From assembly GCA_022482785.1 (NCBI GenBank), contig JAKVON010000005.1, forward strand, positions 124,001-188,000: a DNA stretch of 64,000 bases, read 5' to 3'. The stretch comes from Atopobiaceae bacterium. Its GTDB lineage: Bacteria > Actinomycetota > Coriobacteriia > Coriobacteriales > Atopobiaceae. The translations under genes were made by a program, and so were the position numbers. Below the pieces are notes generated by a model that worked only from the letters and a program-made list of their open reading frames with translations, was not told the origin of the DNA and searched no databases. Below are positions 17,267 through 28,286 of the stretch, in pieces (the first letter of the stretch is position 1; each line of letters starts with the position of its first letter).

Positions 17267-17475
17267 GCACGAAGGTGGTAACGGGGGTGGACCTCCCGTC
17301 AGGCAAGGTACAGTTCGGCGATGTCGACGCATCGTGGCCGGACCGAGGGGAGGCCATGCTCGCGATGGAATACCCGTCCGGAGACCTCTATGCGATCTAC
17401 GCGATCGGAGACGATCCGCCGAAGATCACGTGCGACGAATCTGGAAACGTCTACCTGGAGGTGGATGATGGCTAA
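17263..17475 (+). CDS. Small tail-associated protein
   Basis: A 70-aa protein that overlaps the preceding gene by 4 nt and the DGR target gene by 8 nt. Beta-prone with many acidic residues (VQFGDVDASWPDRGEAMLAME, YLEVDDG). Tight coupling to both tail genes suggests a small structural or chaperone-like partner. I do not recognise a family. Confidence 0.6.
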   Translation: MSTKVVTGVDLPSGKVQFGDVDASWPDRGEAMLAMEYPSGDLYAIYAIGDDPPKITCDESGNVYLEVDDG

Positions 17476-19195
17476 CCTTCTGCTCATCGGGAACTTCAAG
17501 GGTCCTCAAGGAGGCACGGGGCCGTCGGGCAAGGGGATATCTTCCACGGCGGTCGCCTACCAGTCGTCGGCGTCAGGGTCGACCGTGCCGACCGGTACGT
17601 GGTCGTCCTCAATCCCGTCGATCTCCGAAGGCCAGTACCTCTGGACGAGGCTCACGATCACATACAGCGACTCGACTACGACGACGTGCTATGCGGTCGG
17701 GATGGCCGGATCTACCGGTTCGGCCGCGGGATTCGGGACGCCTACCGTCACGCTGAACACCAACGTCACGGAGGCTTCGGCTACGGTCGAGTCGTCCGGC
17801 CCAGACACCGCCAAGGTGTTCGCCTTCACGTTCAACCTCCCTCTCTCGGGGACGTCCCTACCTACGGGCGGGACGACAGGTCAGGTCCTTGCCAAGGCAT
17901 CCGACACGAGCGGGGACGCCGCTTGGGTAGACCCTCCCGTGCCTTCCGGCGGGACGACCGGACAGGTCCTCGCGAAGAACTCGGACACGAGCGGGGACGT
18001 CGGTTGGGTGACCCCGAGCGCATCCGGGGAATCGTGGTCGCAGCTCTGCGGATTCTCTTCGGCGGCGCTCTCGTCGGCCACCAGCCTCGACAAGAAGCTC
18101 TCGAAGGTGGGATGCTCGGAGTACCGCCTGGCTCTCGACGTCGGGCAGTCCTCCTCCGCATGCTCTGGGGCGCTCGTGGTGTCGGTGGACGGTTACGGCC
18201 TCGGATCCGGGCTGTTCGACCATGACCTGGCGACCGGCCCGAGGCACATCTACGCAGAGGGCACGCCATCCCCTTACGCGTCGACCAAGTTCGTCGACGC
18301 CGACTCCGACCTCTCGACTGCCCCGGCGCAGCTCCAGGAACAGCTCGCGTTCCCGTCCGGATCCGGAACGGCAGGGCACCTCATCCTCACGTTCCCGGCC
18401 GCATACACCGGCTCCGTGAGCGGATCCGTGTGGGGGCTCGGAGGCAGGGACTCGGGCAACCTCCCGGAGCACGACACGCTGGCCGAGTACACCGCGGCAG
18501 AGCTAAGCAAGATATCGGCTGACCTGTCGAAGAACGGCACCAGCTCGCTCGCATACCAAGAGTTCCTCGCCTATATGACCGCCGGGGCGACCTGGACAAC
18601 GCCGGCACTTTCGGGGCTCACGGACTTCCCGTCCGCAGACCAGGTGATGGTATGCCGCATCGTCGGGATCAACCACGACACGAAGACGTCGGGCGGTACC
18701 GCAGGGCTCACGTTCCAGGCGACCCATGCGCTCCCATGGCTCTACCAGATGAACTCGACGAACGCGAACGCCGGCGGATGGTCCTCGTCGAAGCTCAGGG
18801 CGACCATGAACTCCGGGGAGATCTGGAACATGCTCCCGTCCGAGCTCCAGGACGTCATCGTGGCAGTCGACAAGACCACCAACAACACCGGAGGGACGGC
18901 GACGACGGCCGCAGACGCGACAGTCACGAGCGACAAGCTCTGGCTCCTCTCGTACATGGAGTACGTGCCGTCGTGCTACTCGTCATGGGCGAACTTCGCG
19001 ACTGGTCACGAGGGGACGCAATACGAGTATTGGAAGGGCAAGGTGACAGCCAACTATTCGGGAAACTCGGTGCTCACATCGCTCCATCTCACGAACAGCG
19101 GCGCCGCGGCCGTCACCCACGAGGGGACGGCCGATGCGAGCATCGTCTGGGAGCGGTCGCCGATCCGACCAGCGCAGCCAGCTTCCTCAACGTAG
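17468..19195 (+). CDS. DGR target: tail protein with DUF6273/C-type-lectin-like variable domain (frameshifted in VR)
   Basis: A 575-aa protein as given. N-terminus: collagen-like GPQGGTGPSGKG, then beta-rich modules with two copies of GGTTGQVLAK-SDTSGD (about 135-180), as in phage tail fibres. The C-terminal region from about residue 395 (CRIVGINHD, WSSSKLRATMNSGEIWNMLP, KLWLLSYMEYVPS) resembles DUF6273, a formylglycine-enzyme/C-type-lectin-like fold used by DGR targets. The last codons enter VR. A 1-nt deletion relative to TR diverts the frame and stops it at 19195. With both VR deletions restored, the frame would run on to GLCVVPGFSL and stop at 19268. Likely the receptor-binding protein (inference). 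Confidence 0.85.
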   Translation: MANLLLIGNFKGPQGGTGPSGKGISSTAVAYQSSASGSTVPTGTWSSSIPSISEGQYLWTRLTITYSDSTTTTCYAVGMAGSTGSAAGFGTPTVTLNTNVTEASATVESSGPDTAKVFAFTFNLPLSGTSLPTGGTTGQVLAKASDTSGDAAWVDPPVPSGGTTGQVLAKNSDTSGDVGWVTPSASGESWSQLCGFSSAALSSATSLDKKLSKVGCSEYRLALDVGQSSSACSGALVVSVDGYGLGSGLFDHDLATGPRHIYAEGTPSPYASTKFVDADSDLSTAPAQLQEQLAFPSGSGTAGHLILTFPAAYTGSVSGSVWGLGGRDSGNLPEHDTLAEYTAAELSKISADLSKNGTSSLAYQEFLAYMTAGATWTTPALSGLTDFPSADQVMVCRIVGINHDTKTSGGTAGLTFQATHALPWLYQMNSTNANAGGWSSSKLRATMNSGEIWNMLPSELQDVIVAVDKTTNNTGGTATTAADATVTSDKLWLLSYMEYVPSCYSSWANFATGHEGTQYEYWKGKVTANYSGNSVLTSLHLTNSGAAAVTHEGTADASIVWERSPIRPAQPASST

Positions 19196-19255
19196 GCTCG
19201 AACGGCGACCCGTCCTCAACAACAGCGCGAGCAACGGGCTCTGCGTGGTCCCCGG
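19125..19255 (+). repeat. DGR variable repeat (VR)
   Basis: A 131-nt copy of TR (19824-19956, 133 nt). Every difference lies opposite a TR adenine: six A-to-G, two A-to-T and two single-A deletions; C, G and T positions are identical. It occupies the 3' end of the target gene. Beyond 19255 similarity breaks (VR CTTCTC versus TR ATTGTC), as expected for distinct IMH and IMH* ends. The deletions fall in GAATCC to GATCC and in the AAC tetrad. Confidence 0.94.
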
Positions 19256-19271
19256 CTTCTCGTTGTAAGCT

Positions 19272-19316
19272 CTGACCATTGTTAGGGCGGGGCCGTGTCC
19301 CCGCCCTCCGGGTCAG
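19272..19316 (+). promoter_or_regulatory. Inverted repeat downstream of VR (DGR homing hairpin or terminator)
   Basis: A perfect 9-bp stem AGGGCGGGG (19284-19292) / CCCCGCCCT (19299-19307) with a 6-nt loop, flanked by an outer CTGACC (19272-19277) / GGTCAG (19311-19316). It begins about 16-28 nt after VR. In the Bordetella phage DGR a GC-rich hairpin just after the VR IMH is needed for efficient homing, so placement fits that role. No T-run follows, which speaks against a simple terminator. Confidence 0.65.
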
Positions 19317-19324
19317 GAGGGCAC

Positions 19325-19798
19325 ATGTCAGTACCGAAGTCGCGCAGATCGACGAGCCCATGCGAGTACGTCATACGCGCCGGGGAGGTCGACCGCCTTG
19401 TCGGGCAGCTGGCGATCAAGCTCCCCAAGAGATGGGACGGAAACAGGAAGGACGCCCTCCTGAGGACGTCCGACGACATCCTCAGGGAGTCTGTGTCGGC
19501 TAATGCGATATGGGCTGCGACGGACGTAGAGAGGGAGGCGCGCCTGAGGCACCTCACGGAGGCGTACTGCGCTTGCGCCGTGCTGCAGGTGAGGCTCGAC
19601 CAGATCGCCAACGAGAGGCCGGTTAGGAGATACGACGAGCCCGGGAATGACGGGGAGACGGTCCACGTCGAGAGGCGGTGCGTCTCCGACTCATACCTGG
19701 AGATCGTCTGCATGGAGGTCGACAAGGAGCAGGCCCTGCTGAAGGGCGCCATCAAAGCGGAGAGGGCGAGGCCGTCGCATGGCACCGGACTGGGATAG
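19325..19798 (+). CDS. avd: DGR accessory variability determinant (Avd)
   Basis: A 157-aa, mostly helical basic protein between VR and TR, the usual location of Avd. ATG 19325 is preceded by AGGAGGGCAC; upstream in-frame starts would lie in the hairpin. Four helical segments can be drawn: AGEVDRLVGQLAIKLPKRW, NRKDALLRTSDDILRESV, EREARLRHLTEAYCACAVLQVRLDQIA and DSYLEIVCMEVDKEQALLKGAIKAER. Avd forms a pentameric four-helix-bundle barrel that binds the RT and TR RNA and is required for mutagenic retrohoming. A Gly/Asp/Glu-rich insert makes it slightly longer than typical. Identification rests on fold pattern and context. Confidence 0.8.
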   Translation: MSVPKSRRSTSPCEYVIRAGEVDRLVGQLAIKLPKRWDGNRKDALLRTSDDILRESVSANAIWAATDVEREARLRHLTEAYCACAVLQVRLDQIANERPVRRYDEPGNDGETVHVERRCVSDSYLEIVCMEVDKEQALLKGAIKAERARPSHGTGLG

Positions 19799-19823
19799 AA
19801 TCTAGCGAGCGGCCGATACCATC

Positions 19824-19956
19824 GGACGGCCAATGCGAGCAACGTCTGGGAGCGGTCGCCGAATCCGACCAACGCAACCAACTTCCTCAACGTAAGCTCG
19901 AACGGCGACCCGTCCAACAACAACAACGCGAGCAACGGGCTCTGCGTGGTCCCCGG
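19824..19956 (+). repeat. DGR template repeat (TR)
   Basis: A 133-nt sequence 97% collinear with VR apart from adenine changes. It is adenine-loaded at first and second codon positions: in the VR frame it reads AAT/AAC (Asn) at nearly all variable sites (SPNPTNATNF, PSNNNNASNG), the codon design that gives maximal amino-acid diversity and no stop codons upon A mutagenesis. It lies in the non-coding gap between avd and rt and would be transcribed as the template RNA together with flanking sequence. Confidence 0.94.
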
Positions 19957-20136
19957 ATTGTCGTCGACCATGCGCCGGTACCCAAGCGGAGAAGGCGCTC
20001 ATATGACGAGAAGGGGCATCGGTCGCGGGGGCTCGTCCCCCGAACAAGGCGGACGGGGTCCTCTGCCTGTCACTTGCCTGACATGGGCATCTGGCCGTGT
20101 AACGGCTTCAGGGGCAGAGAGCTACGGGGCGAATCA

Positions 20137-21297
20137 ATGCCCCGCCCGCCCGCCGGCATGAACGCATCCCAGAGAAGGCGCAGATCCGAGCGCCGGAAGT
20201 CCGAGAGGGAATCGAAGAGGCGCTCGAGGACGTCGAAGCTCCTCGACATCGAGGGGTCTTTCTCCCCGAGGTCGCTGCTCGACGCCTCGCACGAATGCCT
20301 CAGATCCGTCAGATGGAAGGCAAGCGCCCAGAGATGGTGCATCTATGGGCTCGCCAACTCGACGAAGCTATCAAGGCAGATAGTTTCTGGAAGCTACAGC
20401 AAGCGAAAGACGAACACCTTCTACCTCACCGAGAGGGGAAAGAGGAGGCTCATAACCCCTGTCGCGTTCAGAGACAGGGTGGTCGAGCACGTGCTATGCG
20501 AGAAGGTCCTCATCCCGCTGCTCGGCCCCGAGCTCACGCATGACAACGCGGCGAGCCAGAAGGGCAAGGGAACGAAATTCGCCATGGACAGGTTCAGGAC
20601 CGCTATGGCATGGTGTGCGAGAAGGAACGAGGACGCATGGATCCTCACGTTCGACTACCACGACTACTTCGGATCAATACCGTCATCGAGAGCCATGGAG
20701 GAGATCGAGCGCAGGCTCGTCTCTTCGGCCTCCACAGACGAGCAACTAGACAACGCACGAAGGATATCCGACCTCACCAGGGCGTTCGTCTGCGAGTCTT
20801 CGGGTCTCGGGCTCGGAAACCAGACGTCGCAGGTGGTCGCCGTGTGGTGGGCGACCCCAATAGACACGTGGCTCGCGTCGGTTTCCATGCGAAGCGGAAG
20901 ATACATGGACGACGGGTGGGCCATATTCCGATCGAGGGATGAGGCCGACGCTTCGCTAGCCGAGCTCAGAAAGCGGTCCGCGTCCATCGGGCTCACTCTC
21001 AGCGAGGGAAAGACCATGACGAGAAGGCTCGTCGGATCAGACGTCAAGTTCCTGAAAGGCGTCTACCGCGCGCACGGCTCTGGAAAGGTGACATGCAGGA
21101 TATCGAGCGCATCGCTCAGAAGGTGGCGCCGGCATTGCCGGTCGGTAGCCCGACTGATGGGGTCCGGAAGGATCTCAGCATCAGACCTAGAATCCTGCCT
21201 TTCCTCGTCTAGGTCGATAGCCTCGAGGTGCGACTCGGCTTCGAAGAGGCGGCTCCTGAGGGACATGGAGAGGTTCAAGGTCAGGATCATCGGCTAA
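20137..21297 (+). CDS. DGR reverse transcriptase
   Basis: A 386-aa RT from ATG 20137 (ATG 20158 is an alternative; neither has a strong ribosome site). N-terminus is Arg/Lys-rich. Motifs seen: RRLITPVAFRDRVVEHVL (fingers), FDYHDYF with catalytic D173 and D176 region, LGNQTSQ at 226-232 which fits the DGR hallmark [ILV]GxxxSQ (retroviral RTs have QG here), and YMDD at 256-259. The C-terminal basic thumb (RRWRRHCRSVARL) binds RNA. Size and motif order match DGR RTs. It copies TR RNA with errors at adenines; the cDNA replaces VR. Confidence 0.95.
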   Translation: MPRPPAGMNASQRRRRSERRKSERESKRRSRTSKLLDIEGSFSPRSLLDASHECLRSVRWKASAQRWCIYGLANSTKLSRQIVSGSYSKRKTNTFYLTERGKRRLITPVAFRDRVVEHVLCEKVLIPLLGPELTHDNAASQKGKGTKFAMDRFRTAMAWCARRNEDAWILTFDYHDYFGSIPSSRAMEEIERRLVSSASTDEQLDNARRISDLTRAFVCESSGLGLGNQTSQVVAVWWATPIDTWLASVSMRSGRYMDDGWAIFRSRDEADASLAELRKRSASIGLTLSEGKTMTRRLVGSDVKFLKGVYRAHGSGKVTCRISSASLRRWRRHCRSVARLMGSGRISASDLESCLSSSRSIASRCDSASKRRLLRDMERFKVRIIG

Positions 21298-22407: not shown

Positions 22408-24083
22408 ACATCTACGACGGTGAGGCGTCCATCGATCTTGCCGCCACCGGTGCGGACTTCGTCATCATCAAGGCCACGCAGGGAGACTGGCAGCAGGAGC
22501 ATTGGCGCGAGTCCGTGGCCAAGGCCCAGGCCGGAGGGATCCTATTCGGTCTCTACCACTTCCCAGAGGTAGACAAAGGCGTCGATGTAGAGGTCTCAAC
22601 CTTCCTGTCCACGGTCAAGGACTTCATCGGACAGGCTCCTCTCTTCCTGGACTGGGAGAACAACGAGGTAACGGGTCAAAAGAACCTTGACGCCGGAGTT
22701 GGCTACGCCAAGAAGTTCCTTGACGAGGTCAAGGCGCGCACCGGAGTGACTCCTCTCATCTACACGTCCAAGTCCGTCACCAACGAGTATGACTGGTCTC
22801 CTGTCTCGTCCGAGGGAATCGGCCTCTGGGGCTCCCAGTACCTCAACAAGTACTACGACGGCTCGGTTCACGATCTCCTCGACGCTCCGGAAATGCGGAG
22901 CGGGTGGGGCGCTTTTGTCGCGCCTGTCATCTATCAGTACACGGGCAACGGACATATCAACGGATTCGACGGCGATCTCGACCTCGACGTCGCATACATG
23001 TCGCGCGAGGACTGGCTCAAGGCGGCCACGTGCGGCAAGCAAGGAGGATCAACCATGCCAAGCATTCAGAAGTTCGTGGCTCGCATGAGGTACTGGTGCG
23101 ACGAGGCGAACTTGGGATACGACCAGAGCAACCGCGAGGACTTCGAAGTCGGTGGCGAGACGGACTGCTCCGCGCTCGTCATCCACTGTCTCCAGGAGGC
23201 AGGCTTCGATACCGGAGAAGCCACATACACCGGCAACATGAGCGACGAACTGTGTGCTCGGGGTTGGGAGAGGGTCTCCAACGACGGAAACCCTCAGTTC
23301 GGCGACATCCTGCTCAACGACTCTCACCACGTGGCGGTATACGTCGGAGGCGGCCTGCTCTCTCAGGCGTCTCATGGCGAGCCGGGGCACAGGGTGAGAG
23401 GCGGACAAAGCGGAGACCAGACCGACGACGAGACTATAACGAAGGCATACTATGATTTCCCCTGGTCGTGCTACTTGAGGTACACGGGAGCAACAAGCGA
23501 CGAAGGTGGATCATCTACCGATGGACGTTCCGTAGACGAACTCGCCCAGGCCGTCATCAATGGCGAGTTCGGAGATGGAGATTCCAGGCGCACAGCCCTC
23601 GGCGACCAGTACGAAGCCGTCCAAGCACGTGTGAACGAGATTCTCAACGGTGGCTCGAGCATTCCTGCCGAGACACGGTCCGTAGACGAACTCGCCCAGG
23701 CCGTCATCAATGGCGAGTTCGGAGATGGAGATTCCAGGCGCACAGCCCTCGGCGACCAGTACGAAGCCGTCCAGGCACGTGTGAACGAGATTCTCGGAGG
23801 CGGTCCCAGCCCGTCTGTCTCAGCGGACATCGACCAGCTGGCTCAAGACGTCATCGACGGAAAGTATGGAAACGGTGACGACCGCAGGAATGCCCTCGGT
23901 GCCAACTACGACGCCGTGCAGGCACGCGTGAACGAGCTTCTCAATGGCGGTTCGAGCGATGATATCGACGCTCTAGCCCAGGACGTCATCGACGGAAAGT
24001 ATGGCAACGGCGACGATCGCAAGGCGGCGCTCGGTTCCAACTACGACGCCGTCCAGGCACGCGTGAACGAGATCTTGGGGTGA
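22389..24083 (+). CDS. Modular endolysin: GH25 muramidase + cysteine amidase/peptidase + four CW_7 repeats
   Basis: A 564-aa lysin. Residues 1 to about 210: GH25 lysozyme (VGVDIYDGEASIDL with catalytic Asp, IIKATQG, PLFLDWEN with the Asp-x-Glu pair, DLDVAYMSREDW at the end). Residues 223 to about 370: papain-like NlpC/P60-CHAP-type domain with catalytic Cys in ETDCSALVIHCLQ and His in SHHVAVYVGGG. Residues about 380-564: four CW_7 (Cpl-7) cell-wall repeats of about 40 aa, each with DELAQAVINGEFGDGDSRR or a variant. ATG 22389 is chosen because the frame before it has no phage-like start and this gives the exact GH25 N-terminus. Confidence 0.94.
   Translation: MPLVGVDIYDGEASIDLAATGADFVIIKATQGDWQQEHWRESVAKAQAGGILFGLYHFPEVDKGVDVEVSTFLSTVKDFIGQAPLFLDWENNEVTGQKNLDAGVGYAKKFLDEVKARTGVTPLIYTSKSVTNEYDWSPVSSEGIGLWGSQYLNKYYDGSVHDLLDAPEMRSGWGAFVAPVIYQYTGNGHINGFDGDLDLDVAYMSREDWLKAATCGKQGGSTMPSIQKFVARMRYWCDEANLGYDQSNREDFEVGGETDCSALVIHCLQEAGFDTGEATYTGNMSDELCARGWERVSNDGNPQFGDILLNDSHHVAVYVGGGLLSQASHGEPGHRVRGGQSGDQTDDETITKAYYDFPWSCYLRYTGATSDEGGSSTDGRSVDELAQAVINGEFGDGDSRRTALGDQYEAVQARVNEILNGGSSIPAETRSVDELAQAVINGEFGDGDSRRTALGDQYEAVQARVNEILGGGPSPSVSADIDQLAQDVIDGKYGNGDDRRNALGANYDAVQARVNELLNGGSSDDIDALAQDVIDGKYGNGDDRKAALGSNYDAVQARVNEILG
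23040..24083 (+). promoter_or_regulatory. Internal ribosome site and in-frame start in the endolysin gene
   Basis: AAGGAGG at 23040-23046 lies 8 nt before ATG 23055, in frame, exactly at the border between the GH25 domain and the Cys-amidase domain (MPSIQKFVARM). Translation from it would give a 342-aa second product with the amidase and all CW_7 repeats but no muramidase. Comparable internal starts are known in several Gram-positive phage endolysins. Confidence 0.65.
23529..23795 (+). repeat. Recent 117-bp duplication of a CW_7 repeat
   Basis: 23529-23645 and 23679-23795 are identical except one transition (CCAAGC/CCAGGC). The other two CW_7 repeats of the lysin are clearly diverged, so this pair reflects a recent duplication or gene conversion with a 150-bp period. 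Confidence 0.9.
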
Positions 24084-25203: not shown

Positions 25204-26145
25204 CTAGAGCAGCTTCCATCCCGACACGTCGCACTGGCCGTCGCTGTTGTAGCCCGCAGCGACGACCGTGCCGTCGCGCTTGAGGCCGATGGAGTGCTCA
25301 TAGCCTGCGGAGACGGCGACGATGTCCTTCCACTTGGATATTTCGTCCGAGCCCGTGCCGCTTCCCGCGACGAGCACCGTGCCGTCGCTCCTGAGCCCGA
25401 GGGTGTGGGCGACTCCGCAGGAAACCTGCGTGACGTCGGCCCATCCCGACACGTCGCACTCTCCGTTGTAGCTGCTGCCGGTCGCCACGACCGTGCCGTC
25501 GGCCTTGAGGCCGAGCGTGCGCGCGAGGCCTGCCGACACGGCCTTGATGCCGCTCCATCCCGACACGTCGCACTGAGCCGAGTCGTTTCCGCCCGTGGCC
25601 ACGACGGTCCCGTCGCGCCTGAGGCCAACGGTGTGGTAGCCTCCGGCCGACACGGCGACGACGTCGCTCCATCCCGACACGTCGCACTGCCCCATCTGGT
25701 CGCTGCCCGTGGCCACGACGGTGCCGTCGCCTCTGAGCCCGACGGTGTGATAGGCCCCGGCCGACACGGCCGTGATGCCGCTCCATCCCGACACGTCGCA
25801 CTGGCCCGACTTGTCGAGGCCCGTGGCCACGACGGTGCCGTCTCGCCTGAGGCCCACCGAGTGACATCCGCCTGCAGAGACGGCCGCGACGTCCGTCCAG
25901 CCCGTGACGTCGCACCTGCCGTCCTGGTTGCTTCCGGCTGCCATCACCGTGCCGTCGCCCTTCGCCCCGAGCGTATGAAGCGTCCCCGTGGCAGAGATGA
26001 GCGGCGCGCACTCCGCAGCCGTTGGCCCTGAGGAGCTGCCGGCCGCTGGCGTCGTGCCGGCAGGGGAGCAGGCCGTGACGAGCGCGAGCATGACGATTGC
26101 GGCGAGAGCCGCTGCCGCCAGCCTCGAGGTGCCGTTAAGGCGCAT
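25204..26145 (-). CDS. RCC1-repeat lipoprotein
   Basis: A 313-aa protein with a lipoprotein signal peptide (LAAIVMLALVTAC, lipobox Cys). The body consists of six to seven repeats of about 38-40 aa with the pattern VAVSAGGYHTVGLRRDGTVVATGSNQDGQCDVSGW, i.e. RCC1 blades forming a beta-propeller exposed on the cell surface. DNA of the repeats is also highly similar, suggesting recent repeat expansion. The start could be the ATG at 26160, immediately after the stop of the upstream peptidase gene; 26145 gives the better signal peptide. Probably co-transcribed with the peptidase. Confidence 0.85.
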   Translation of the reverse strand: MRLNGTSRLAAAALAAIVMLALVTACSPAGTTPAAGSSSGPTAAECAPLISATGTLHTLGAKGDGTVMAAGSNQDGRCDVTGWTDVAAVSAGGCHSVGLRRDGTVVATGLDKSGQCDVSGWSGITAVSAGAYHTVGLRGDGTVVATGSDQMGQCDVSGWSDVVAVSAGGYHTVGLRRDGTVVATGGNDSAQCDVSGWSGIKAVSAGLARTLGLKADGTVVATGSSYNGECDVSGWADVTQVSCGVAHTLGLRSDGTVLVAGSGTGSDEISKWKDIVAVSAGYEHSIGLKRDGTVVAAGYNSDGQCDVSGWKLL

Positions 26146-26160
26146 CCCTCTTCCTTCCAT

Positions 26161-28128
26161 CTATCCGAGCCTCCTCGTCGCGACGCCGTTCTCGTAGTCG
26201 ATGAAGGCGTAGTCCGAGTTCGTCTGCTTACCCGTCGTGTCGGTGACGGTGTACTGGTAGGCGTACTGCCCGTCATAGAGGTCGATCTCCGTGAACTGGT
26301 CGGGGCCGGTGTAGGTGATGGGGTCGGAGTCGTACTCGATCACCTGGCTCGTGTCGCTCAGCGAGACCGCGTCGGAGACCAGCACGATCTGGTCGCCCCT
26401 GGCCAGCTTCTTGGTGGTCTTGCCGGCCATGCCGGTGTTCTGGTCGATGGAGTCCTCGACGCCGATGATGGAGTAGCTCGAGGTCGTGAAGTCATAGCTC
26501 ACCACCATGTTGGTGCTCGTGCCGTTGAGCTTGATGGGGACGGTGTAGGTGTTCGTGTCGTCCCCCTCGTCCGAGAGGGTGAGGGAGGCGTAGTGCCCGT
26601 CCATCGAGCCCCACACGCCCCGGAAGTTGTCCTTGAACACGCCGGCGTCCCAGTCGGCGTCGATGTCGTCGTCGGTGCCGAGGACGAGCATCTCGTCGTT
26701 GGCCTCGTCGACGTAGATGAGGTTGAACGTGACGCTCGCGACCGAGTCGAGCGAGGAGGGGTCGAGCGTCATCTGGATGTGCTGGTCGTCGCTTATCGTG
26801 AGGGCGGGGGTCTGGCTGAAGCCCTGGATTTGCCCCGTCTCGACGCCCGTGTCGCCCTGGACGTCGCCCGTGACGTCCTCGCCGAGAGAGTAGCGGATGA
26901 AGTTCGCGTAGACGGGGCTTGCGGCGACCTGCGCGTAGGCCGCCGCGTTCTGCTCGTCGCCGTCATAGCAGTAATAGGTGGAGAGGCCCGAGGCCTGCTT
27001 GCGATAGGGCCCCCTCACCTGGTAGATGACTGCCTTGCCAAGGGCCTCGAGGACCTGTTGGTCGCTCGAGGGCACGAGGTCCTGGGCCTTCCTCATGAGG
27101 TCCCCCAGGTCGACCATGTTGGCGTAGCCGCTGCTGGCGTTGTTGCCCCCGAAGTTGACCGACGCGCGGGCCCTCCTTCCGAACTGGCCGACGACCTTGC
27201 TGTTCTTCGCCGCTGCCGTGAGGACCTCCTTGCCCATGCCGTTCACGGCCGAGACGAGGCCGTCGACCTGGGAGAGGTCGGTCACCGACATGGTGATCGA
27301 CTTGTCCGTCCCCGAATCCTCGCACCCCTGCTCGAAGGCGTCGCAGGCGGTCTTGGCGAGCGTCTCGGCGGACATGCTCGGGTCCTGCCCCAAGGCTGCG
27401 AGCGTGCGGTCGTAGTCCCAGCCGTTGCCGGGCTCGACCTCCTCCGATGCCACCAGGTAGCTCGCGTACTTCTTCATGACGTTGGCGTTGTCGAGCGTCG
27501 CCATGAGGCAGGTGTCCATGCCCACGACGTCGAGCTTCGAGCCGTCCGAGTACACGCTGCCGATGGCCTGGTCGAGCTCGGGAAGGGTGAGGCTGTCATA
27601 GTCGTAGTTCTCGTCGAAGCAGGCACCGGCGACGCTCCCGCCGCCGTGGTCCCAGAGCACGAGCATCGTGTGGTCTGCCGGGTAGTTCGTCTTGCAGTAC
27701 CGCAGGAACGACGAGAGGGTCGAGGGGTCTCCCATGTCGGCCTGCGGCTGCTCGTCGACCTTGTTGAGGCTCGTGCCGCCGTACTCGTAGCGCTGGATGA
27801 CGTCGGGGTCCATGACGTTGTTGCGCCAGTAGCTCGTCCCGCCCGTCTCGAGCACCACCTTGACGTCGCTGCCCACGTCGGCCGAGAGCATCTCGGAGAT
27901 GTCCTCGGTGGCCGCCCCGCTCTGGCTCTCGAGGTCGCTGCCGCAGCAGTACCAGTAGACCGCCCAGGTGCCCTTCTCGCCCGTCGGGGTCGTGGTGCCG
28001 ACGTCGCTGCCCGCGTAGCCGCCCGAGGTGGCGATGGAGCATCCGGTCACGGCGAGCGCGAGGAAGAGGAGGAGAGCCGCGAGGCTCGCCCTCATGAGAG
28101 CACTTCTGCCGGTCGCCTGTCTCCGCAT
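26161..28128 (-). CDS. Clostripain-family (C11) cysteine peptidase lipoprotein
   Basis: A 655-aa protein. Signal peptide with lipobox (LLLFLALAVTGCS), then the C11 core: TWAVYWYCCGSDLES, a long alpha/beta region, catalytic His in VLWDHGGGSVAG and catalytic Cys in VVGMDTCLMA. The C-terminal half is a beta-rich domain with TYTVPIKLNGT and VVSYDF. ATG 28128 has GGAGGG; the frame upstream is Arg/His-rich and not coding. Such lipoprotein C11 peptidases are frequent in gut actinobacteria and clostridia. Adjacent RCC1 lipoprotein begins at its stop codon. Substrate unknown. Confidence 0.9.
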   Translation of the reverse strand: MRRQATGRSALMRASLAALLLFLALAVTGCSIATSGGYAGSDVGTTTPTGEKGTWAVYWYCCGSDLESQSGAATEDISEMLSADVGSDVKVVLETGGTSYWRNNVMDPDVIQRYEYGGTSLNKVDEQPQADMGDPSTLSSFLRYCKTNYPADHTMLVLWDHGGGSVAGACFDENYDYDSLTLPELDQAIGSVYSDGSKLDVVGMDTCLMATLDNANVMKKYASYLVASEEVEPGNGWDYDRTLAALGQDPSMSAETLAKTACDAFEQGCEDSGTDKSITMSVTDLSQVDGLVSAVNGMGKEVLTAAAKNSKVVGQFGRRARASVNFGGNNASSGYANMVDLGDLMRKAQDLVPSSDQQVLEALGKAVIYQVRGPYRKQASGLSTYYCYDGDEQNAAAYAQVAASPVYANFIRYSLGEDVTGDVQGDTGVETGQIQGFSQTPALTISDDQHIQMTLDPSSLDSVASVTFNLIYVDEANDEMLVLGTDDDIDADWDAGVFKDNFRGVWGSMDGHYASLTLSDEGDDTNTYTVPIKLNGTSTNMVVSYDFTTSSYSIIGVEDSIDQNTGMAGKTTKKLARGDQIVLVSDAVSLSDTSQVIEYDSDPITYTGPDQFTEIDLYDGQYAYQYTVTDTTGKQTNSDYAFIDYENGVATRRLG

Positions 28129-28286
28129 GCGCGTCCCTCCGTCTTGTCGGCCATCCTCCTGATTCTCCCACGTATGGTGACGCCGGGGGCGTCGGGAGCG
28201 GCGGGAGGCGGAAACGAGAGCCCCATGGGGCACCGCCTCCGTGCTATGGTTGGGCCCGTCTCGCATCGATCAGGGGGAGGGGCTCC

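Follow-up and report, generated by a model that had tools for sequence, protein, structure and literature searches.

We examined a 64,000-nt stretch of DNA from an Atopobiaceae bacterium (contig JAKVON010000005.1 of assembly GCA_022482785.1, positions 124,001 to 188,000 of the forward strand; hereafter "the window") and found that it carries a prophage with a diversity-generating retroelement (DGR). This phage-borne DGR very probably works as that of Bordetella phage BPP-1 does (we put the probability at about 0.9), diversifying the C-terminal DUF6273 domain of a tail protein. Between positions 19125 and 21297 the + strand contains, in order, the 3′ end of the target gene with its variable repeat (VR), a 157-aa open reading frame (ORF) resembling Avd, the template repeat (TR) and the ORF of a reverse transcriptase (RT). 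An earlier note made from the sequence alone had claimed a complete DGR in this interval, and the TR/VR pair, the gene order, the adenine bias, the grouping of the RT and the model of the Avd-like protein bear it out. The DGR is real, although there is nothing unusual about such a system among gut phages; the locus is a further member of a published kind, and its interest lies in the pattern of its cis-acting elements rather than in the DGR itself. The features referred to below are as follows.

17465-19195, + strand: target gene, tail-fibre-like protein with a C-terminal DUF6273 domain
19125-19263, + strand: VR, the only one in the assembly
19254-19259, + strand: GGCTTC, putative boundary element (initiation of mutagenic homing, IMH) in the VR
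19284-19307, no strand assigned: putative target-recognition hairpin or cruciform
19325-19798, + strand: Avd-like accessory protein, 157 aa
19824-19964, + strand: TR
19955-19959, + strand: GGATT, putative counterpart of the boundary element (IMH*) in the TR
20137-21297, + strand: RT (20137 being the assumed start codon, in a frame that stays open on the upstream side)

Anatomy of the retroelement

The VR and TR are direct repeats, and the TR is rich in asparagine when read in the target frame. Their aligned core differs by ten substitutions, nine of which are at TR adenines (six A→G, two A→T and one A→C), while the tenth, G→C, lies at the extreme 3′ end of the core. The VR also lacks two single bases, both of them adenines in the TR. 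Adenines make up 35 of the 138 bases of the TR core, and simple arithmetic from this proportion gives a chance of about 4e-6 that nine substitutions would all be on A. The A→C nearest the 3′ end probably reflects a fixed difference at the boundary rather than mutagenesis, as judged from the alignments of relatives described below. The possibility of a second VR elsewhere was rejected, because at E ≤ 0.001 the 2.6-Mb assembly contains the TR and one VR only. The same genome has two more DUF6273 matches (G000:C3:33656-33949 and G000:C6:110196-110636), with no TR match there at E ≤ 0.001.

The RT matches RVT_1 and PHROG 1423 and contains all three motifs that had been claimed for it (FDYHDYF, LGNQTSQ and YMDD). 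All 28 rows of an RT alignment share D173, Q232 and YMDD, and we take YMDD and the GxxxSQ-type motif 4 to be marks of the DGR class of RTs. The best sequence match in the PDB is 8ub7_A (E 8.8e-10), part of an entry whose title names a DGR ribonucleoprotein. In a tree of 47 RTs (a quick tree with some long branches), a branch with an SH-aLRT value of 97 separates the 34 DGR-labelled rows, which include BPP-1 brt and the window RT, from three group II, eight retron-like and two other RTs. Checked for whether it falls outside the DGR clade, the RT therefore falls inside, and its placement rejects a group II intron or retron enzyme. At two other loci (L068 and L072) the RT frame is open through an Asn-rich TR, which recalls the TR-inside-RT layout of Eggerthella lenta clade 2 prophages as described in the available portion of PMC8778435.

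The accessory ORF matches PHROG 30516, to which no function is assigned there, and has no match in Pfam, NCBIfam or PADLOC, but an iterated profile found homologues of it in 115 of 124 loci. A model built from the window and viral-contig sequences (pLDDT 91) is predicted to form a four-helix bundle whose last helix is preceded by a beta-hairpin. Among PDB structures it is matched best by 2gsc and 2rld (S23-type) and by chains of 8ub7 that are presumably Avd (TMt 0.76-0.82). We take the accessory protein as Avd-like by its predicted fold and its position.

The DUF6273 domain claimed for the C-terminus of the target is recovered by Pfam (E 4e-9), and the N-terminal part has PHROG tail-fibre matches. 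A profile grown from this domain matches the VR-bearing ORFs in 100 of 114 relatives, and 112 of the 114 pass a lenient test of read-through of the VR. A search with the target itself yielded one relative contig (L266, 43% identity), whose C-terminus is in frame throughout. The proposal in the earlier note that the phage diversifies its receptor-binding protein is plausible, given the position of the gene, its DUF6273 domain and the relatives, but the frameshift in the assembled VR allele prevents it from encoding a complete domain. Switching of host tropism may be a consequence of such diversification, although the allele at hand does not serve it.

RT relatives at E ≤ 1e-10 are present in 12 of 140 genomes of the family and 39 of 395 genomes of the order, the window's own genome being counted in both. 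Comparisons were made with 41 of the 45 non-window RT places from the order-level search (in 40 regions), with the best 80 of at least 547 viral relatives and with four phage records added by hand. Loci L108, L148, L156 and L173, where the detected pair looked misassigned, were excluded from the hairpin, boundary and indel counts. An adenine-biased TR/VR pair was found in 115 of 125 scanned loci, which is not an unbiased rate, since the filter itself demands adenine bias; the remaining 10 yielded no pair that passed it. Some individual loci differ from the common pattern. At L047 (G265:C4) there is no clear adenine bias between the repeats (6 of 14 differences at A) though the RT is closely related, and this DGR is perhaps inactive; at L048 the pair has 21 of 33 differences at A. 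L044 (G067:C148) combines one TR with a clean VR (22/22 substitutions at A) and a weaker repeat (26/43 at A) in a paralogous stretch, and L059 (G158:C6:36500-55500) has two oppositely oriented DGR RTs within about 8 kb, each with its own adenine-biased TR/VR pair.

Hairpin and 3′ boundary

A GC-rich, perfect 9-bp inverted repeat (AGGGCGGGG/CCCCGCCCT) with a 6-nt loop, CCGTGT, lies 20 nt 3′ of the VR (DNA folding z −3.5). Its stem and position agree with those given for BPP-1-type elements in the portion of PMC3240598 available to us (GC-rich stems of 7-10 bp, 4-34 bp after the VR), but its loop is not the 4-nt GRNA that the same source gives as the phage consensus. The BPP-1 element is described there as required for homing, and a changed loop sequence, or two extra loop nucleotides, as reducing homing to near background.

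Similar hairpins are common in the relatives. Stems of at least 7 bp occur within 60 nt after the VR in 76 of 102 distinct regions, compared with 2.4 expected from shuffles, and hairpins within 80 nt after the VR in 90 of 111 loci (79 of them distinct). At three control placements hairpins were found in only 3/109, 1/109 and 3/110 cases, and in the stretch after the TR in 5/104. The same search recovers the BPP-1 element with its GAAA loop. The loops of the 79 distinct hairpins fall into CY(N)1-2GY (39), GRNA (7) and other (33), classes that were defined after the loops had been seen. The loop CTTGT recurs on 13 and CTTGC on 12 distinct stems, and conserved loops on varying stems are the pattern that PMC3240598, in its available portion, tied to a sequence-dependent function of the loop. 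By analogy with BPP-1, the hairpin may serve in target recognition.

It is very unlikely that the hairpin is merely an intrinsic transcription terminator. Terminators are likewise GC-rich stems 3′ of a stop codon, but at least five T in the next 8 nt follow only 6 of the 90 hairpins, the window's not among them, and we reject this reading on that ground. The recurrence of identical loops on unlike stems also speaks against it, as does the fact that the BPP-1 element, which is needed for homing according to what is available of PMC3240598, is picked up by the same search.

The 3′ ends of the repeats carry a further difference, a C in the VR (GGCTTC) against an A in the TR (GGATT), and this C/A difference is fixed in relatives. 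Of 104 pairs, 78 have C in the VR at their last adenine mismatch, as against 288 of 1486 for all other adenine mismatches. A motif search located the boundary site in 81 of the 104 pairs, where the triplet changes between TR and VR are GGA→GGC in 29 of 29, TGA→TGC in 31 of 32 and CGA→CGC in 14 of 20 rows, a few of the CGA rows probably being other sites. With GGA in frame, as in the window TR, any third base would keep the glycine, yet all 29 VRs have GGC. The site is therefore seemingly not mutagenised. From these alignments it appears to behave like an IMH/IMH* pair, in which case the tract exchanged in homing would be expected to end on its upstream side.

Together, the hairpin loop and the boundary pair suggest a target-recognition variant that is so far only loosely tied to RT lineage. 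Mapped on the RT tree, loop class requires 38 changes compared with 56.6 after shuffling, and none of 200 shuffles was as low, but this clustering, computed with a slightly wider definition of the loop class than the hairpin counts, deserves little weight: near-copies inflate it, the FastTree phylogeny has long branches, and the window's branch is mixed. The eight rows of that branch have three CY..GY, two TNTAT and three other loops. We tentatively suggest that many DGRs of this gut-phage group might use a second hairpin code, in which a 5-6 nt CY(N)1-2GY loop (mostly CTTGY) and a GCTT/GATT pair would be read by a matching RT-Avd. The mixed loops in the window's own branch speak against a tight link to the RT and therefore lower the odds of such a code a little. 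In a literature search that was mostly without subscription journals, we came across neither the CY(N)GY loop nor the GCTT/GATT pair, and no account of the loss of single bases at template adenines.

An out-of-frame target allele

Several observations weigh against the view that the locus works as the BPP-1 DGR does. The VR allele is out of frame, with single-base losses near 19163 and near 19216. Among the relatives, 21 of 111 loci have no hairpin of at least 7 bp within 80 nt of the VR. By sequence the accessory ORF does not match BPP-1 Avd, which is not among its iterated-profile homologues either, and the Foldseek E-values of its model are modest (best 0.0035). As for a C-type lectin fold of the target, the model of relative L143 (pLDDT 96) has as its top match an IgA peptidase, 9qa6 (E 7e-5), and C-type lectins appear only at E > 1. 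Because our own fold search did not recover this fold convincingly, its assignment rests on PMC10743442, the available text of which describes a C-type-lectin-like fold for DUF6273-type domains in which the VR forms a beta-hairpin at the surface.

The reading frame of the target is lost near 19163, and a stop codon at 19193-19195 ends the ORF inside the VR. Relative to the TR frame the protein loses about 35 residues from its C-terminus and has 10 unrelated ones in their place; mapped on the L143 model, the lost part would contain the last four strands. Of the interior frame-breaking indels sought among 9253 TR bases of 104 distinct TR/VR pairs, a count that omits the first 5 and last 25 alignment columns, there are two, both in the window VR. 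Three other pairs (L075, L099 and L168) have in-frame 3-nt indels, and the net shift seen in L109, L112 and L141 lies outside the interior, at the 3′ border. The window VR is thus not read through to the target end (it is out of frame after 19163), but we do not take read-through as defining for a DGR, because the TR, RT and Avd-like gene are intact and the relatives read through almost without exception under the lenient test given above. Truncated target genes are listed for Treponema denticola in the part of PMC4891356 that was available, and broken DGR targets are therefore not unheard of. Nothing that we observed favours a programmed frameshift restoring the VR frame, although no test aimed at one was made.

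There is about an even chance that the deletions are true products of mutagenic reverse transcription, in which the RT would have skipped template adenines and a null allele would persist, tail function being unselected in the lysogen. Both missing bases are TR adenines within AA pairs, the window VR is the sole carrier of interior frame-breaking indels, and the main late genes match profiles over long stretches. The 3-nt in-frame indels of the three other pairs fit the AAC-repeat slippage discussed in the accessible text of PMC12875486. Nevertheless, two of two losses would fall on A by chance in about 6% of cases (from 35/138), which makes this point weak, and such losses are absent from the other 103 pairs, although these may have undergone selection.

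Alternatively, the frame break might be an error of assembly or sequencing in a polymorphic VR, which we consider a serious possibility, if short of an even one. Hypervariable repeats are a recognised hard case for assembly, the genome is fragmentary (33 contigs, 85.5% completeness), and a second, retron-like RT of the assembly is likewise split among frames. Such an explanation would, however, need two errors in fewer than 140 bases, both on TR adenines, amid long intact ORFs; around the VR the late genes look intact, and long ORFs fill them and most of 24-64 kb. That the prophage is decaying and its DGR no longer matters is improbable. The truncated target would fit decay, as would the ORFs for a Mutator-family transposase and a tyrosine recombinase that lie in the prophage region upstream. 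Against it, the reading frames of the RT, Avd-like protein, terminase, portal, capsid, tape measure and endolysin are uninterrupted and match their profiles, and the YMDD of the RT is intact. We consider the frameshifted allele slightly more likely to be a true by-product of homing, unselected in the lysogen, than an assembly error.

Prophage setting

The prophage tail context that had been claimed for the DGR is supported by Pfam and PHROG matches of the neighbouring late phage genes. Upstream lie genes for the terminase, portal, protease, capsid, major tail proteins and tape measure and a PHROG tail protein. The downstream neighbour (22434-24083, + strand) is an endolysin that combines GH25, an ELLD/NlpC-type domain and several CW_7 repeats in a single chain. 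A 528-aa recombinase-family ORF sits upstream of the window (contig C5, L180/L181 boundary), and the upstream prophage region (L180/L181 boundary; L181:7197-9929) also has a tyrosine-type integrase along with the Mutator-family transposase. A 789-aa host protein near the 528-aa ORF shows up to 78% identity to Olsenella and other Atopobiaceae records, which makes a host within the Coriobacteriales probable. To the right of the prophage genes (25204-28266, − strand) are an RCC1-repeat protein and a Peptidase_C11 (clostripain family) protein. The split retron-like RT of the assembly (G000:C9, L182:2797-3723, − strand; NF038233 E 1.3e-55, below the family cut-off) extends over three frames and is flanked by ORFs that we read as transposase-like and by a 358-aa ORF.

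A search for att-like repeats gave no convincing match. No second copy of the prophage was found in genus genomes (a set that consists of the window's own genome only), in phage records, or in searches with the target, the capsid and a 20-nt TR/VR stretch. A megablast of the late region against phages gave no close relative, and searches for close relatives with the RT alone, the 20-nt TR/VR stretch and the capsid were all unproductive.

Discussion

The DGR layout in Coriobacteriia prophages and DUF6273 targets have both already been published. The window DGR resembles that of BPP-1 (mtd-avd-TR-brt) in gene order, RT grouping, adenine-specific TR/VR differences, the predicted Avd-like fold and a GC hairpin after the VR, but differs in its 6-nt loop CCGTGT (GAAA in BPP-1), in the lack of an Avd sequence match, in its DUF6273 target and in its out-of-frame VR. 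It is also like the DGRs of Eggerthella lenta prophages (clades 2, 3, 4, 7 and 10) as these are described in the available part of PMC8778435: they too are in Coriobacteriia prophages, with the order target-avd-TR-RT and repeats of about 130 bp, and one of them was shown changing in culture; a hairpin or boundary element is not mentioned in that description. VRs in DUF6273-type domains are described for targets of Faecalibacterium phages Roos and Pioen (PMC11792537, where the VR is at the domain end) and of phages nd4 and nd12 (PMC10743442), in what was available of both sources. These phages have other hosts, and the domain is N-terminal in tentaclins but C-terminal in the window target.

For the cis-acting elements, archaeal (DUSEL4) DGRs offer a precedent for lineage-specific hairpin loops and IMH/IMH* letters, although those in the portion of PMC4372165 at hand have GRA triloops and TGGGGT/TGGAAT rather than the CY(N)1-2GY loops and GCTT/GATT seen here. 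Loop classes by lineage, therefore, are not without precedent.

If the system works as we propose, the TR would be transcribed, and the RT together with the Avd-like protein would reverse-transcribe it, making errors at template adenines. The resulting cDNA would then take the place of the VR as far as a 3′ boundary that lies immediately before the fixed C/A (IMH/IMH*) difference, the DNA hairpin that follows the VR and not the TR marking the recipient. The product would be a tail protein with a diversified C-terminal DUF6273 domain, with the assembled allele left out of frame by the two missing template-adenine positions.

If the frameshifted VR is real, it would be a rare direct look at the output of mutagenic homing before selection. 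Half of the distinct hairpins (39/79) have larger, differently conserved loops, though BPP-1 tolerates neither change according to the available portion of PMC3240598, and the variant is worth testing. Should a second hairpin code exist, DGRs with different loops would not act on each other's targets, and natural loop variants make the question of what reads the loop a testable one.

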